64,000 nt of DNA from the NCBI GenBank assembly GCA_019694975.1, contig JAIBAY010000003.1, positions 372,001 through 436,000 on the forward strand, written 5' to 3'. Numbering within the stretch: position 1 is the stretch's first letter; each line of letters starts with the position of its first letter. This DNA comes from Chitinophagales bacterium (GTDB taxonomy: Bacteria > Bacteroidota > Bacteroidia > Chitinophagales > UBA10324). The position numbers and the translations under genes were made by a program. This document shows, in pieces, positions 56,068 through 64,000 of this stretch. Under the pieces are notes generated by a model that was given only the letters and a program-made list of their open reading frames with translations, was not told where the DNA came from and did not search any database.

Positions 56068-57060
56068 TTGGTTCTGAAACGCGCAATATTAGTTATTATT
56101 TTCTTCAGCCTTTTTACCAGCAAGTCCGGTGCGCAGGATGCTGAATTCAGCCAGTTTTTTAATGCACCGCTCTATCTGAATCCTGCCTTTGCCGGTGTCG
56201 GTGAAGGCCCGCGATTCTGCATTAATTACAGGAATCAATGGGCAAGCCTGAACAATGCATTCATCACCTATGCAGCATCTTACGATCAGAACTTTGAAGC
56301 CATCAATGGTGGAATCGGCATACAATTGTCATCAGACCGGCAGGCAAGTGGCTTGCTCACTGCAACAACAGTGTCAGGTATTTACTCCTATCAGCTGAAC
56401 CTTAGCCCGGATGTCGGAATCAAAGCAGGCGCATCTGTTTCTTATGTACAAAAAAGGATTGATGCCGGCCAATTGATTTTTGCAGAAAACATCAACCCGA
56501 ACAATGGTGCAACCAATGGAACGGTATCAGCGGACTTACCGGATGAAACCTCAAAAAGTATAGCAGACATCGGCGGCGGCATCATTATTTACACTAAAAA
56601 AGTTTATGCAGGACTGGCTGTCAAGCATGTGACTTCACCTGATGAATCATTTATTTCAACACAGGTTAGTCCATGGCCGGTAAGGATTGCAGCAAATGCC
56701 GGAATTGAACTGCATTCCAGGAAGAGCGCACAGACTCCGGTTTACTTTGCACCTAACCTGCTGTTTGTCCAGCAGGCTTCTTTCAGGCAACTGAATGCAG
56801 GTGCAATTTTGGGCATAGGTGTGCTCTATGGAGGAATCTATTTCAGGACAGCCTTCGGAAACAGTGACGCGGCAATCATCATCATGGGTTTGAAGAGGGG
56901 TATTTTCAAGTTTGGATACAGCTATGATGCAACGGTTTCCAACCTGGCGAAGAGTGGCGGAACGCATGAACTTTCTGTAGTGATGAATTTTCATGATTCC
57001 AAGAAAGTACAGTTCAGGAGAAGTGCGAAAAGGTTTAGCGATTGCCCGGAGGTTTTTTGA
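56068..57060 (+). CDS. PorP/SprF-family type IX secretion membrane protein
   Basis: A 330-residue outer-membrane protein. There is no ATG; TTG at 56068 (or CTG 56074) opens the signal peptide LVIIFFSLFTSKSGAQ. The mature start QDAEFSQFFNAPLYLNPAFAGVGEGPRFCINYRNQWA is the PorP/SprF hallmark. Repeated strands GIGIQLSSD, GIYSYQLNLS, VSYVQKRIDAGQL, then KRGIFKFGYSYDATVSNL, ending in NFHDSKK, complete the barrel. Members are partners of the secretion or gliding machinery and stabilise SprB-type adhesins. It is divergent from porU and 145 bases before gldJ on the same strand. It could be a paralogue rather than the core PorP. Confidence 0.9.
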   Translation: MVLKRAILVIIFFSLFTSKSGAQDAEFSQFFNAPLYLNPAFAGVGEGPRFCINYRNQWASLNNAFITYAASYDQNFEAINGGIGIQLSSDRQASGLLTATTVSGIYSYQLNLSPDVGIKAGASVSYVQKRIDAGQLIFAENINPNNGATNGTVSADLPDETSKSIADIGGGIIIYTKKVYAGLAVKHVTSPDESFISTQVSPWPVRIAANAGIELHSRKSAQTPVYFAPNLLFVQQASFRQLNAGAILGIGVLYGGIYFRTAFGNSDAAIIIMGLKRGIFKFGYSYDATVSNLAKSGGTHELSVVMNFHDSKKVQFRRSAKRFSDCPEVF

Positions 57061-57163
57061 TTAAGCATACCATGGCACTTTTGCCATCCTGCGAAAAAAA
57101 TCAGTGGCCATTAGCCACATCACGCCATTGCTGTGAATAGTGCTGATTTTGAAATAAATAATT

Positions 57164-57171
57164 TACATTTG
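57164..57171 (+). promoter_or_regulatory. -7 promoter box of gldJ
   Basis: TACATTTG is a perfect TAnnTTTG and continues as CG. It is 34 bases before the ATG. The -33 partner is imperfect, but the box suggests gldJ has its own promoter despite following the PorP/SprF-like gene. Confidence 0.5.
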
Positions 57172-57205
57172 CGTTTACCTCTCTCTTCACGTAATTTAAC
57201 TAAAC

Positions 57206-58696
57206 ATGCTGAAGCGGTCTCTTATCAATACCGGTTCGCTGATGTTCGTATCAGCAACCCTGCTTTTTTCGCTGAGCTCTTGTAAAAAAGAGCAGTCTGC
57301 TACCACTGGCTGGAACTATAACGACAGCAAATGGGGCGGATTTGAAGTCAGGGCCTTTGATGGCCAGGAAACCGGACCCGGTTTGACTTTGGTGGAAGGC
57401 GGTTCATTTGTGATGGGCAATACTGAACAGAACCTCACTTACGATTTTGACAATATTCCCAAAAAGATTACGGTGTCATCTTTTTATATGGATGAGACAG
57501 AGGTTGCCAACGTACACTATCGTGAATATCTATACTGGTTGGGACGCACCTTTGGTTCTGATTTTCCTGAAGTAGTGAAAAGGGCCCTGCCCGATTCATT
57601 GGTATGGCGCGATGAACTTGCTTATAACGAACCATATGTGGAATACTATTTCCGGCATCCGGCTTTTAATAATTATCCGGTTGTGGGTGTTAGCTGGGTG
57701 CAAGCCAATGACTATTGTGCCTGGCGGACCGATCGCGTTAATGAATGGATCATGATACGCGAAGGCATCCTGGATAAGAATCCTAGCCAGGTGGATGAAG
57801 ACAACTTTAATACGCAGTCCTATCTTGTCGGACAATACGAAGGAGCTATCAAGAAAAACCTGAAAGATCTCAATCCGAATGGAACAGGCGAAAGGAAAGT
57901 ACGGATGGAAGATGGCATCCTGTTGCCTGAATACCGCTTACCTACGGAAGCAGAATGGGAATACGCAGCTCTTTCACTGATTGGCAATAACCCATATAAA
58001 GATGAGGAGTTGTATACTGACCGCAGGATTTACCCATGGAACCGTGATCAGATGCGTGATCCGCAGCATGGCGGATGGCAGGGTGATTTTCTCGCCAACT
58101 TTAAACGCGGCAATGGTGATATGATGGGCGTTGCCGGCGGGCTGAATGACAATGCCGACATCACTGCACAGGTTACTTCCTTCCTTCCAAATGATTTTGG
58201 TCTTTATAATATGGCGGGCAATGTGAGTGAATGGGTGGCTGATGTTTACCGGCCGAATACATTTTATGATGCCAGTGATTTCAACGGTTTCCGGGGTAAT
58301 GTATTTATGAAAGACAGCCTGGATGAAGAAGGTTATCATGTTGACAAGGATTCCCTTGGAAGAGTAATCAAGGTGCCGATGTCTGATGCTGAGAGTGCCA
58401 ACAGGCTGAATTATCGCCGAAGCGATGTAATCAATTTCCTCGATGGTGACTCATTGTCAGAAGTGCAATACAATTATTCCGTTTCTTCACTCATCAATGA
58501 CAAAGCACGTGTTTACAAAGGCGGCTCATGGGCTGATATGGCCTACTATCTTTCACCCGGCACCAGGAGATTTCTGGATGAAAATCTTGCATTGTCAACG
58601 CTTGGATTCCGGTGTGCAATGGTGAGACTGGGTAGTCCTACAGGAAATGACTTCCCCAGCGGCAAAGAGTTTGATGCACCGAAAAAGAAGAAGTAA
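57206..58696 (+). CDS. gldJ: gliding-motility lipoprotein GldJ
   Basis: A 496-residue lipoprotein (lipidated Cys26 in FSLSSCKKE). The early segment GWNYNDSKWGGFEV is typical of GldJ. The body is a formylglycine-generating-enzyme-like (SUMF1) domain: LVEGGSFVMGNTEQ, VSSFYMDETEVANVHYREYLYWL, YPVVGVSWVQANDYCAWRTDRVNEW, YRLPTEAEWEYAA, FGLYNMAGNVSEWVADVYRP, and near the end KGGSWADMAYYLSPGTRRFLDENLALSTLGFRCAM. This fold is structural here. GldJ supports stability of the motility and type IX machinery in Flavobacteriia. The basic C-terminus (DAPKKKK) is unusual but short. Confidence 0.92.
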   Translation: MLKRSLINTGSLMFVSATLLFSLSSCKKEQSATTGWNYNDSKWGGFEVRAFDGQETGPGLTLVEGGSFVMGNTEQNLTYDFDNIPKKITVSSFYMDETEVANVHYREYLYWLGRTFGSDFPEVVKRALPDSLVWRDELAYNEPYVEYYFRHPAFNNYPVVGVSWVQANDYCAWRTDRVNEWIMIREGILDKNPSQVDEDNFNTQSYLVGQYEGAIKKNLKDLNPNGTGERKVRMEDGILLPEYRLPTEAEWEYAALSLIGNNPYKDEELYTDRRIYPWNRDQMRDPQHGGWQGDFLANFKRGNGDMMGVAGGLNDNADITAQVTSFLPNDFGLYNMAGNVSEWVADVYRPNTFYDASDFNGFRGNVFMKDSLDEEGYHVDKDSLGRVIKVPMSDAESANRLNYRRSDVINFLDGDSLSEVQYNYSVSSLINDKARVYKGGSWADMAYYLSPGTRRFLDENLALSTLGFRCAMVRLGSPTGNDFPSGKEFDAPKKKK

Positions 58697-59064: not shown

Positions 59065-60324
59065 ATGACCACTATGAAACGCATCATGATCCTTGGAGCC
59101 GGCACCGCCGGAACAATGATGGCGAATCACCTGCGACACGAACTTGATCCGCTCGAATGGGAGATCACCATTATCGATGAAAGCGACACACATTATTATC
59201 AGCCGGGTTATTTATTCCTTCCATTCGATATCTATGAACCGGAAGATATTAAAAAACCAATCCGCGATTTCATACCGCACGGAGTCAATTTCATGCAGGA
59301 GAAGCTCGCAAAGATCCTACCGGAAGAAAAGAAAATCATTTCTGAAAACGGAGATACTTTTCATTACGACCTGCTGATAATCGCTACCGGCACCAAACCC
59401 GCACCGGAAGAAACAGAGGGCATGCTGGGCGCAGAATGGAAGAAAAGCGTTTTTGATTTCTACACCTACGACGGCGCATTCAATCTCCGCAACAAACTAC
59501 GCGATTGGGAAGGCGGAAAACTGGTGGTACACATTACAGAGATGCCGATCAAATGCCCGGTGGCCCCGCTGGAATTCGCCTTTCTCGCCGACTCCTACTT
59601 CCGGCATAAACATATGCGCGACAAGGTGGACATAACATTCGTGACACCGATGAGCGGCGCTTTTACAAAGCCAAAAGCAACGGAAGCGCTTGATCACCTG
59701 CTGACAGAGAAAAATATCCATATCGTAGCGGATTTTGCCATTGAACGGGTGGACAATGAACATAAAAAAATTATTGACTATGGTGGTGCCGCCGTTGAGT
59801 TTGATCTGCTGGTAACCGTCCCCACCAATAAAGGCGACGAACTGATTGGCCGGTCAGGGCTGGGCGATGAATTGAATTATGTGCCTACTAATAAAGGCAC
59901 CCTTCAATCTAAAGCGTATCCGGAAATCTTCGTTTTGGGTGATGCCAGTAACCTGCCTGCCTCCAAAGCAGGTTCCGTTGCACATTTTGAAGCGGAAATA
60001 CTCACTGAAAACATCAAGCGCTACATTGAAGGACAGCCATTGAAGGCAGACTTTGACGGACATGCCAATTGCTTTGTAGAAACCGGAAACGGCAAAGCAC
60101 TGCTGCTCGATTTCAATTATTCGCACGAACCGGTAGCAGGCGAATTTCCCATTCCCGGTATTGGTCCGCTGCGATTATTGAAAGAAAGCAGGATGAACCA
60201 CATGGGAAAAATGGCGTTCCGTTGGATTTACTGGCATATGCTTTTGAAAGGAACTCATATTCCTTTCGTCTCCACGGCCATGTCGGAAAGCGGTAAACAT
60301 TATGACTCACCTAAAAATAACTAA
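59065..60324 (+). CDS. sulfide:quinone oxidoreductase-like flavoprotein
   Basis: A 419-residue FAD enzyme. The dinucleotide-binding motif is GAGTAGTMMANHL (residues 11-23), and the second FAD motif is IFVLGDASNLPASKAGSVAHFEAE. Only two cysteines are present: Cys164 (PIKCPVAPLE) and Cys336 (HANCFVETGNGK). They match the positions of the redox-active pair in SQR enzymes; a third cysteine found in some subtypes is absent. The C-terminus is a membrane-associating amphipathic region (RMNHMGKMAFRWIYWHMLLKG). It probably oxidises sulfide at the membrane, passing electrons to quinone; a related flavocytochrome-type role is possible. It is the first gene of the operon, with two bases before the next. 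Confidence 0.86.
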   Translation: MTTMKRIMILGAGTAGTMMANHLRHELDPLEWEITIIDESDTHYYQPGYLFLPFDIYEPEDIKKPIRDFIPHGVNFMQEKLAKILPEEKKIISENGDTFHYDLLIIATGTKPAPEETEGMLGAEWKKSVFDFYTYDGAFNLRNKLRDWEGGKLVVHITEMPIKCPVAPLEFAFLADSYFRHKHMRDKVDITFVTPMSGAFTKPKATEALDHLLTEKNIHIVADFAIERVDNEHKKIIDYGGAAVEFDLLVTVPTNKGDELIGRSGLGDELNYVPTNKGTLQSKAYPEIFVLGDASNLPASKAGSVAHFEAEILTENIKRYIEGQPLKADFDGHANCFVETGNGKALLLDFNYSHEPVAGEFPIPGIGPLRLLKESRMNHMGKMAFRWIYWHMLLKGTHIPFVSTAMSESGKHYDSPKNN

Positions 60325-60326
60325 TC

Positions 60327-60635
60327 ATGGAAAAGATCATTGCAGGCAAAACCATTGCCGTAAATGAAGAAGGTTACCTCACCAACTTCAGCGAATGGAA
60401 TAAAGAAGTAGCAGAGGAAATTGCCAAAGAGGCAAGCATCACACTGACGCCCCGTCATTGGCAGGTATTGAGCTACTTGCAGGACGAATACAGGAAAGAA
60501 GTGCCACTCAGCATCCGGAAAGTAGGCAAAAGCGGCGTGGTTGACATCAAAGAATTCTATCAGCTATTTCCGCAAGGGCCGCTGAAAACCGCTACCAGGA
60601 TTGCTGGCATTCCAAAACCTGTAAGCTGTATCTGA
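60327..60635 (+). CDS. DsrC/TusE-family sulfur-relay protein
   Basis: A 102-residue cytoplasmic protein of the DsrC/TusE family. The domain is evident from VNEEGYLTNFSEWNKEVAEEIAKEASITLTPRHWQVLSYL and the C-terminal arm QGPLKTATRIAGIPKPVSCI. The penultimate cysteine (Cys101) that carries persulfide is present, but the second arm cysteine found ten residues earlier in dissimilatory DsrC is replaced by threonine. In sequence terms this is the TusE-like form, used for sulfur transfer rather than forming a trisulfide with sulfite reductase. It starts two bases after the flavoprotein and 24 bases before the DsrE-like gene, so it is co-expressed. Confidence 0.9.
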   Translation: MEKIIAGKTIAVNEEGYLTNFSEWNKEVAEEIAKEASITLTPRHWQVLSYLQDEYRKEVPLSIRKVGKSGVVDIKEFYQLFPQGPLKTATRIAGIPKPVSCI

Positions 60636-60659
60636 TTCACCATCTTAAATCCAACTACT

Positions 60660-61142
60660 ATGAACACAAATAATGGTATCATCAAAAAAATGATGATCAT
60701 TCTCTCAAAAGCAACTCTGGAGAGTGTTTACGCAGCCTTCATTCTCGCTAATGGCGCAAGGTCGGAAGGCATAGAAGCCGAGATGTTCTTTACCTTTTTC
60801 GGACTGGAAGCAGTTCACAAGCAACGGCTGAATCATTTGCATATCGCCACGGTAGGAAATCCAGCCATGCATCTTCCAACACTCGTTGGCGGATTACCCG
60901 GTATGGAAGCAGTAGCCACCACCATGATGAAAAAGGAAATGGAAAAAATTGATATACCGGATGTACCGGAATTTCTCGACATCCTGAAGGCATCCGGCGT
61001 AAAGATGTGGGCCTGCAAACTGGCGATGGACATGTTCCATTATAAGCAAGAAGACCTCAGTGAGAATATCGAAGGTGTGCTGACCGTTGGCGGATTTTAT
61101 AACCGCGCTAACGGTGAAGGCACCCATATGCTCTTTATCTGA
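60660..61142 (+). CDS. DsrE2-like sulfurtransferase/peroxiredoxin-family protein
   Basis: A 160-residue protein of the DsrE/DsrF/DrsH superfamily (COG2210-type). Starting MNTNNGIIKKMMIILSKATLESVYAAFILANGARSEGIEAEMFFTFFGLE, it includes the conserved cysteine in VKMWACKLAMDMF, which corresponds to the persulfide-binding residue of DsrE2 proteins. Members accept sulfane sulfur and hand it to TusA or DsrC-like carriers; here a DsrC-like partner is encoded just upstream. There is no transmembrane hairpin in this version. It is the third and last gene of the operon, ended by a strong terminator. Confidence 0.85.
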   Translation: MNTNNGIIKKMMIILSKATLESVYAAFILANGARSEGIEAEMFFTFFGLEAVHKQRLNHLHIATVGNPAMHLPTLVGGLPGMEAVATTMMKKEMEKIDIPDVPEFLDILKASGVKMWACKLAMDMFHYKQEDLSENIEGVLTVGGFYNRANGEGTHMLFI

Positions 61143-61161
61143 AACGATCATACAAGCATAA

Positions 61162-61202
61162 AAAACCGGCGCTGATGAACGATCAGCGCCGGTTTTATTT
61201 AT
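61162..61202. terminator. bidirectional terminator after the sulfur operon
   Basis: AAAACCGGCGCTGAT and ATCAGCGCCGGTTTT form a perfect 15-base-pair stem with a five-base loop. T runs exist on both sides, depending on strand. It serves the sulfur operon and the convergent large surface-protein gene. Confidence 0.88.
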
Positions 61203-61235: not shown

Positions 61236-64000
61236 CTATTGCTGAATGGTCAGTTTCCGGTAGGAAGTTTTTCCATCCACAATCACCTGCATGTAATAGG
61301 AACCTGCTGCCCATTGACTGAAATCAAATGTTTTCTTTATTTCATCAGCCGCTTTTCCTAAAGCAGTTTCGTAAACAGGCTGACCAACCATATTAAACAC
61401 TTTGATTACTATTTCATCTGCAGGTTTGGCAAGTTTCAGATCCAAAGTAACAAGGCCATTACCCGGATTAGGATACAAGAGTAATTCGTACTGATCATAA
61501 AGGCCTGCTATACCCGACAATATCACTACATGTACATCCTGCGTAACAGAACCTGTACAGCCATGTGTATCTGTGTAAGTATAGGTGACTGCATAGGTAC
61601 CCGGACCAACTGTTGAAGGGCTGAAGACATTGCCTGACACACCCTGCCCACTGAAAATGCCTCCTGCAGGGATGCCTTCCATCACCACATCTGGATCGGT
61701 GACATAATACTGGGTTGCAAGATTGCCAATGAGTACGCCCGGTGTAGGATGCACCACCACATTTACCGATACAACGGTATCACAATCAGCAGTGGGGTCA
61801 GTCACTGTAACTGTAAAAGTCATCGATGCGGGCGGTACTACCGTAACCGATTGCGCCATGCCATTCTGAGGATCCATGCCGGCAATTGCTGGCGACCATT
61901 CATAGTTGAAACTACCTGTTGTGGCGCTTTCTGCATTCAGTTCAATCATATCACCTTCGCAGATGTCGTTATCCGATGCTGTAGCCAGTACTTGCGGCGA
62001 ATAGATTGTAGCAAGTACAGGAACTCTTTCGCTGGCACAGCCCGGCGCCAGGTAATGCACTGTTCCATTCCATTTGTATGGAGCACTTGGGTAACCAAAC
62101 GGATAATAGTCTGCGGCACCTTCTTTAACCTGGATATTCGCATCGGATGCATAAACGTTTCCAACGGATGTGCCGATATCGTAATAGATATAGCTGTAGT
62201 TGGTTGAAGCTATATAGAAAGCATATGTTGCTCCGGCATCCATGTGAATGCTGAAGTCGGCAGGTATGGCCGTAGGCTGTCCGTAACCTGCAGCCGGCAC
62301 ACCGGTGGCAATACCGGCAAGTGTCCACGCCGCGGGATTTTGTTCAAACCCTGCATAGGATCCCTGCTTGTAGTAGATTTCAAAATCTCCGGTGCCATAT
62401 TGAAGATGAACGTCAAATCCGGTAATGAATACTTCATTGACAGCCGTGATATCGAACATGGAGCCGGTTTGCGAATAGAATCCGGTATAAGCTGTCGCTA
62501 ATGGTGCCGGCGCGGGCAACCCTTCTTCCACCCAGAAAGTGGTGGTGGTATTGATAACCGGTGTATTGAATGGAGAACCTGATCCGAGGTAAGAATTTCC
62601 TGTTTGAGCATAATACCAGTTAAGGCTGCCGTTTCCGGTACCTGTTGCACCTAACAGTACTGAACCCGGGCCGCAATGCCCTCCTTCAATGCCAACGGGT
62701 CCATCCGGCGGATAATTGATTACGATTGGTTCCTCCGGAGAAGTAATTGCATTCTGGCAGCTTACTTTCACTACATAATAGGTGGTAGTATTCAGCAATG
62801 GTGTACTGTATTGATCTGATGTTGCACCCGGTATATTGGTATAAGGTCCACCGCTGTTCAACGACTGTTGCCAGTGAAGCGTTGCTCCCGGAGAATAGTC
62901 ATTTAATGTCAGCAAAGCCTGGCCACTTTCGCAGAACTGTTCCTGGCTGGAAGCAATGGTTCCGGCGACGGGTGTAGTCAATACGTTAACGGTAGCCGTT
63001 CCGGTTGTTGCACACAGTGAGGCCGGATCGGTAACAGTGACTGTATAAGTGGTAGTTGACGATGGTGAAGCAGCCGGATTCATAATCGCAGCATTGTCAA
63101 GCGAGCCGGCCGGTGTCCAGCTATAATTATATTCCGGCAGGCTGAACTTCCATGCATCATTCGTCGCTGCCCAGGTGGCATCTGCATTTCTTCCGGGAAC
63201 AGTGAGTGCAACGGTACCATCTGCATTTTCAATGCCTTCGGTATGTGGCAGCCAGCTGGTGGAAGGATTGCCGGGCATAGCGGTTGTATGAATCTCAATC
63301 TTATTGGAGGTTTCGTAGAGGATTACCTGCACGGTAACAGGATCACCGCCGAGATAATGCTGAATATTATCGAAAGTGACCACCAGTTTTCTGGCTGGTG
63401 CAGTGCCGGTAGTGTAGTAAGTGACCGATCCACCGAGCCCCGGGTTCAGATCCTCCCATGCAAAGGCGATAAGGTTTTTCAGGAAGTTATAATTAGGCAA
63501 ATACTGTCCTGAACAGCAACCTGCCCCAGTAAACGGATCAAAAGTGATAAATCCATTGGCAGAGATATAAAACTGCGAATAGTCAATACCATAAAATTTA
63601 AAAGAGAACCCGACGGGCAGTGCTTCACTAACCGATTCGTCAGTAAGCGATACGTTGATACCCGCCGTGGTTGATAACGGGGCAAACGGAATCTGGCTGA
63701 CTGAATACTGTGCTGCCGGGCTTTCAGCCAACAGGTTGGCAACACCGCCGGAACAAACTGCATCAGGGCTTGCTGTTACGGTAATCTGCGGCGGATCCAC
63801 CACGCTCACTGTTATGGTGTCTGAATTGGTGCAGGTAGTATTTGTTGCCGTTACAATATAACTGGTTGAAACAACAGGGTTAGCTGTTATGGAAGAACCT
63901 GAAGTGCTGCTCAATCCGTCTGCCGGCGACCAGGTATAGGAAGTATACGGGCCTGCGGCTACAAGTGCAACGGAGGTACCTGAACCGCTACAGATAGCAG
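61236..64000 (-). CDS. large secreted surface protein with type IX tail (partial, N-terminus beyond window)
   Basis: At least 920 residues; the frame is open to the right edge, so the start is outside the window. It is built from repeated Ig/PKD-like domains (ITVTASPDAVCSGG, TYTVTVTDPASLCATTGTATV, VTVVPPASMTFTVTVTDPTADCDTV), many holding Cys pairs and W-S/T-P motifs (YSWTPAGS, YEWSPAIAG). A central segment (EGLPAPAPLATAYTGFY and NWYYAQTGNSYLG) belongs to an Ig-like domain with a beta-sandwich insertion. The last 80 residues are a type A secretion tail (LLLYPNPGNGLVTLDLKL, WAAGSYYMQVIV, KLTIQQ). It is probably an adhesin exported and processed by PorU. Confidence 0.9.
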   Translation of the reverse strand, partial: AICSGSGTSVALVAAGPYTSYTWSPADGLSSTSGSSITANPVVSTSYIVTATNTTCTNSDTITVSVVDPPQITVTASPDAVCSGGVANLLAESPAAQYSVSQIPFAPLSTTAGINVSLTDESVSEALPVGFSFKFYGIDYSQFYISANGFITFDPFTGAGCCSGQYLPNYNFLKNLIAFAWEDLNPGLGGSVTYYTTGTAPARKLVVTFDNIQHYLGGDPVTVQVILYETSNKIEIHTTAMPGNPSTSWLPHTEGIENADGTVALTVPGRNADATWAATNDAWKFSLPEYNYSWTPAGSLDNAAIMNPAASPSSTTTYTVTVTDPASLCATTGTATVNVLTTPVAGTIASSQEQFCESGQALLTLNDYSPGATLHWQQSLNSGGPYTNIPGATSDQYSTPLLNTTTYYVVKVSCQNAITSPEEPIVINYPPDGPVGIEGGHCGPGSVLLGATGTGNGSLNWYYAQTGNSYLGSGSPFNTPVINTTTTFWVEEGLPAPAPLATAYTGFYSQTGSMFDITAVNEVFITGFDVHLQYGTGDFEIYYKQGSYAGFEQNPAAWTLAGIATGVPAAGYGQPTAIPADFSIHMDAGATYAFYIASTNYSYIYYDIGTSVGNVYASDANIQVKEGAADYYPFGYPSAPYKWNGTVHYLAPGCASERVPVLATIYSPQVLATASDNDICEGDMIELNAESATTGSFNYEWSPAIAGMDPQNGMAQSVTVVPPASMTFTVTVTDPTADCDTVVSVNVVVHPTPGVLIGNLATQYYVTDPDVVMEGIPAGGIFSGQGVSGNVFSPSTVGPGTYAVTYTYTDTHGCTGSVTQDVHVVILSGIAGLYDQYELLLYPNPGNGLVTLDLKLAKPADEIVIKVFNMVGQPVYETALGKAADEIKKTFDFSQWAAGSYYMQVIVDGKTSYRKLTIQQ

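Follow-up and report, generated by a model that had tools for sequence, protein, structure and literature searches.

A conserved operon of a type III sulfide:quinone oxidoreductase with DsrC- and DsrE-family proteins in Bacteroidota

Sulfide:quinone oxidoreductase (SQR) is a common entry to sulfide oxidation, and for most bacteria it is uncertain which molecule accepts its sulfur in vivo. In Sulfolobales, a DsrE-type gene lies downstream of the SQR gene, and the group encoded there was named DsrE4 by Liu et al., with Mcup_1724 as its prototype (PMC4175335). The operon analysed here likewise has a DsrE-type gene downstream of SQR but carries a gene for a single-cysteine DsrC between the two, which the Sulfolobales description does not name; the comparison is with that description rather than with the Mcup_1724 sequence. 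In Allochromatium vinosum, sulfur transfer from DsrEFH to Cys111 of DsrC has been reported in vitro (PMC3397948), and the likeness to our operon would be a DsrE-type cysteine that passes persulfide on to DsrC at its penultimate cysteine. Our operon differs in encoding one DrsE_2 protein and a DsrC from a separate clade that lacks the second cysteine, in a genome with no DsrA. The TusBCD-TusE-MnmA relay of E. coli also has a single-cysteine, TusE-like carrier, whereas here TusA is missing, the carrier gene is tied to SQR and its product falls under the TusE equivalog cut-off. The cst-type systems and the mitochondrial SQOR-ETHE1-TST pathway resemble our host genome in combining SQR with a metallo-beta-lactamase-rhodanese fusion, a rhodanese and TauE, which in some relatives are encoded beside the operon; the operon differs by adding two protein sulfur carriers at the SQR step. 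Each component is already known, as is the linkage of SQR to DsrE. For an SQR-(DUF1641)-DsrC-DsrE unit, we found no description in the open-access literature, although an earlier one is possible.

Our operon lies in a 64,000-nucleotide stretch of a Chitinophagales genome (the window). On the sequences, we consider it reasonably probable that it serves sulfide oxidation or detoxification, and that sulfane sulfur is handed on in protein-bound form, probably to a persulfide-dioxygenase/rhodanese set.

Layout and conservation of the operon

The three open reading frames share one strand (Table 1), and the gaps of 2 and 24 nt given in the original prediction are exact to the base. The strong terminator that it placed at the end of the operon was also recovered, as a GC-rich hairpin within a 55-nt fold of -33.5 kcal/mol, which could terminate both the SQR operon and a convergent gene (61236-63998, - strand). 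The SQR start codon lies 368 nt past the end of the upstream gene, and inspection of the window sequence upstream of SQR revealed no convincing sigma-70 or Bacteroidetes-type promoter. Further 5' of the operon (56068-58696) are a PorP/SprF gene (type IX secretion) and a gene for an FGE-sulfatase-domain protein, which we take to be GldJ/GldK-like; neither is related to sulfur.

Table 1. Coordinates of the operon genes and of the hairpin in the window
Feature	Position	Strand	Family or basis
SQR, type III sulfide:quinone oxidoreductase, 419 aa	59065-60324	+	NF049943
DsrC/TusE-family sulfur carrier, 102 aa	60327-60635	+	PF04358, TIGR03342
DsrE-family (DrsE_2) protein, 160 aa	60660-61142	+	PF13686
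Intrinsic terminator-like hairpin, 15-bp stem	61162-61196	both	sequence fold

The trio occurs in the same order in all eight genomes of the host's order that encode an SQR over the cut-off. A scan of contigs from one genome per species yielded 559 or more SQR relatives, and we inspected the best 80 named loci. SQR, DsrC and DsrE are intact, in the same order and on the same strand, in 78 of these 80, nearly all from Bacteroidota and including cultivated genera such as Flagellimonas, Maribacter, Limnovirga and Flavisolibacter. One exception is a contig that stops inside DsrC (L131); the other, L090, lacks both carriers. In L090 (8293-9750), the only full locus where SQR stands alone, a FixG-like ferredoxin-type gene occupies the carriers' place directly 3' of it. 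A locus labelled Planctomycetaceae (L084) has an intact trio on a 5-kb contig of a metagenome-assembled genome, which may reflect binning contamination or transfer.

We also searched an even sample of the phylum (296 genomes, about 247 of them outside a dsr-bearing family, f37). Outside f37, each of the 28 genomes with the SQR has a co-directional DsrC gene that follows it at 35-835 bp; DsrC occurs in 29 of the roughly 247 genomes, and only one strong-scoring DsrC is found without SQR. The co-occurrence of SQR and DsrC outside f37 has a Fisher p of about 4e-36, a value that ignores kinship among genomes. The DsrE gene is also present in the 18 sampled loci that we read, as well as in those of the window and of genome G096, from the host's order. 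Since the order is kept in 8 of 8, 78 of 80 and 28 of 28 cases, the trio is conserved beyond chance. The original prediction named an adjacency limited to this genome as a result that would refute it; the arrangement clearly recurs across the named loci and the sampled genomes. We set aside the DsrC of genome G249 (L193, G249:C73:23294-23581), which has no type III SQR and ends differently (QCLCE). This odd variant sits among chemotaxis-type genes.

The conservation bears on the main rival to a protein-bound route, in which bacillithiol or cysteine, as a low-molecular-weight thiol, would take up the SQR sulfur, while DsrE and DsrC would form a sulfane-sulfur buffer or a biosynthetic side branch towards Fe-S clusters, lipoate or other thiolations. 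L090, with its SQR but no carriers, indicates that SQR can act alone; it counts against a relay and favours this rival. The near-perfect co-occurrence and fixed order of the trio across many genera argue for a shared step, however, and we regard the small-thiol route as rather unlikely.

The three proteins

The flavoprotein scored 643.6 bits against NF049943 (SQR_III_seleno; cut-off 525). Human SQOR is its closest solved chain in sequence and profile searches, and is also the best fold match (TM 0.84, 2.7 A rmsd) of its AlphaFold2 model (pLDDT 86.8). Human SQOR uses small thiols, which is a further point for transfer to such a thiol. Two cysteines, Cys164 (KCPVAP) and Cys336 (HANC), align with cysteines of human SQOR and are invariant in an alignment of 106 relatives. 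In the tree, the SQRs of the operon and of f37 cluster together with good support, to the exclusion of other SQR-like proteins; no relative was found in viral contigs. By its sequence, then, the protein labelled an SQR-like flavoprotein in the original prediction can be refined to a type III SQR in its cysteine form, from a family (NF049943) that also contains selenoproteins. A recent review lists the type III SQR family with a selenocysteine motif, HxxU (PMC13188914). We ruled out the selenoprotein subtype here, because the motif H333-A-N-C336 is encoded with a cysteine codon, and the residue is cysteine in 106 of the 106 relatives read.

SQR activity would follow from membership of this family. 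Conceivably the enzyme acts on selenide, a persulfide or a CoA-type thiol instead of sulfide, with the carriers taking up what is formed. Such a substrate would be reflected in the family's selenoproteins, which have selenocysteine at the HANC position, and the literature that we looked at gave no measured activity for this SQR branch. Both catalytic cysteines, the FAD-binding start and the fold match those of proven SQRs, however, and we consider another substrate very improbable.

The middle gene had been predicted to encode a DsrC/TusE carrier with a C-terminal cysteine, and this proved correct: its product passes both PF04358 (102.4 bits, cut-off 24.9) and TIGR03342 (88.6 bits, cut-off 53.5). 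It contains one cysteine, the penultimate Cys101, which is kept in 103 of 104 aligned sequences. At position 90, 11 residues upstream, these 104 sequences have T, S or A and never C, whereas the DsrC of f37 has both cysteines in 30 of 30 cases. In organisms without DsrAB, the second cysteine of DsrC is swapped for A, S or T (PMC3397948), and the operon DsrC agrees with this rule. With this cysteine absent, and no dsrA in the genome, we rejected an assignment to DsrC sensu stricto, the partner of DsrAB. In the tree, a 100/99 branch separates the operon DsrC from that of f37 and from solved Dsr-type DsrC. We also rejected the TusE equivalog NF008562, against which the protein scored 72.2 bits (cut-off 191), in a genome without TusA.

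These results argue against a further possibility, that DsrC works here as a TusE, supplying MnmA with sulfur for 2-thiouridine formation in tRNA, with the DsrE protein in place of TusBCD. Its single penultimate cysteine is TusE-like, and the host genome encodes MnmA. The shortfall against NF008562 argues against such a role, however, as do the ties of the operon genes to SQR rather than to mnmA. Moreover, MnmA is present in 14 of 14 control genomes and DsrC in only one, so MnmA is independent of DsrC. Because TusA is absent and the operon is patchy, with DsrC in 29 of about 247 sampled genomes, we judge a role in tRNA thiolation to be most improbable.

The third protein scored 120.8 bits against PF13686 (DrsE_2; cut-off 25) and 105.9 bits against NF047629 (DsrE2), under the cut-off of 210. 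It has a sole conserved cysteine, Cys119, invariant in 102 of 102 aligned sequences; in the best fold match, 2QS7 (SSO1126), a cysteine aligns with it. No transmembrane helix pair was detected, the maximum 19-residue hydropathy being 1.58, within the first strand/helix of the fold. DsrE2 is defined by two conserved cysteines (PMC4175335) and two transmembrane helices (PMC12998232). The protein thus belongs to the DsrE family, as the original prediction held, but is not DsrE2 proper (NF047629/DsrE2A), given its score, its one cysteine and the missing helix pair. Its linkage to SQR, kept in the same 78 named loci, fits DsrE4. DsrE2B of Metallosphaera cuprina, a homologue of the closest solved fold, was inert toward all sulfur compounds tested (PMC4175335), which counts against a relay through the DsrE-family protein.

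Deep lineages and archaeal relatives

In seven deep lineages, the gap between SQR and DsrC is larger and contains a DUF1641 gene (e.g. L142 2729-3436, and six other loci), so that the deep operons in the phylum read SQR-DUF1641-DsrC-DsrE. A gene for a MerR-type regulator lies directly 5' of SQR in five of the deep loci (L142, L143, L146, L147 and L159). This regulator has a cysteine-rich C-terminal tail and may be a sensor of sulfide or persulfide. Relatives of DUF1641 and of the MerR-type regulator were found in deep lineages only, and in none of the 80 named loci. In ten f37 genomes, an SQR of the same type and DsrC are 1.7-11 kb apart. At one such locus (L192), two sulfite-reductase-type genes, a DsrL-like flavoprotein gene and a CobB-like gene surround SQR and DsrC; judging from its gene content, f37 resembles green sulfur bacteria.

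Haloarchaeal relatives of the SQR, 30-35% identical to it, are arranged TusA-SQR-DUF1641 (L199 and L200). As in the Bacteroidota, a homologous SQR adjoins a small single-domain carrier, and DUF1641 is common to these clusters and the deep-lineage operon; the haloarchaeal clusters differ in that the carrier is TusA rather than DsrC, and the stretches read contain no gene for a DsrE protein. The archaeal arrangement suggests that DsrC fills the carrier place of TusA.

Genome context and the proposed sulfur route

Searches of the whole host genome (4.3 Mb, estimated completeness 100%) detected one DsrC and one DrsE_2 protein, and neither TusA nor DsrA. The operon proteins are thus the genome's only members of the two carrier families. 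The original prediction had noted no dsrAB, tusA or rhodanese genes beside the operon; the absence of TusA and DsrA extends genome-wide, while rhodaneses occur elsewhere, with 15 rhodanese-domain matches in total. The genome also encodes the bacillithiol enzyme BshC, and SQR could therefore transfer its sulfur to a small thiol; this counts against a relay and in favour of the small-thiol route. A glutathione-synthetase domain gave a weak match, which a different ATP-grasp enzyme might explain, and we make no claim about glutathione.

At 253-258 kb of contig C3 (L187), the host genome encodes a metallo-beta-lactamase-rhodanese fusion, a rhodanese, a TauE/SafE protein, an OsmC protein and a Crp-type regulator. 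Among the fusion's PDB relatives are 3tp9, 3r2u and ETHE1, a persulfide dioxygenase. In four relatives of the operon locus (L073, L074, L077 and L078), genes for the fusion, the rhodanese and TauE/SafE lie at most about 7 kb from the operon. Across the 0.97 Mb examined, we counted seven fusions in six loci, several from related organisms, against an expectation of ~0.5 from our estimate of about two per 4 Mb. The dioxygenase set stands beside the operon in few loci only and about 170 kb away in the host, which counts against the relay. The original description of a minimal module therefore holds locally, but not in the four loci with the added set, which the host encodes elsewhere, nor in the deep lineages, where the operon gains DUF1641 and the MerR-type regulator.

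For the protein-bound route that we favour, we infer an order of transfer and a final acceptor as follows. SQR, at the inner membrane, would oxidise sulfide and feed electrons to the quinone pool, linking the operon to respiration, with sulfane sulfur held between Cys164 and Cys336. Sulfur would then leave SQR on protein, instead of or besides a low-molecular-weight thiol, and pass to Cys119 of the DsrE4-like protein and on to the DsrC/TusE-like carrier, at Cys101 in its flexible tail. This last step is modelled on transfer from DsrEFH to DsrC and from TusBCD to TusE. Loaded DsrC would probably deliver to the persulfide dioxygenase-like fusion and the rhodaneses encoded elsewhere, and their products, sulfite or thiosulfate, would be exported by TauE/SafE-type proteins. 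The carrier cysteines of DsrC and DsrE are kept and the DsrAB-specific cysteine of DsrC is lost, which supports this route. More tentatively, and at somewhat less than even odds in our estimation, SQR sulfur in many Bacteroidota may go directly, rather than by way of a small thiol, to DsrE4 and then to the single-cysteine DsrC, which would replace TusA, before reaching a persulfide dioxygenase.

Matches to dsrC and 'dsrE2' in Bacteroidota should not be taken as a Dsr pathway, a caution that matters for the annotation of the sulfur cycle in metagenomes. If direct transfer to DsrE4 and DsrC is correct, DsrC would have a role independent of DsrAB, as a cytoplasmic acceptor of SQR sulfur. The fixed SQR-DsrC-DsrE unit in cultivated genera offers a tractable test of protein-mediated sulfur acceptance.
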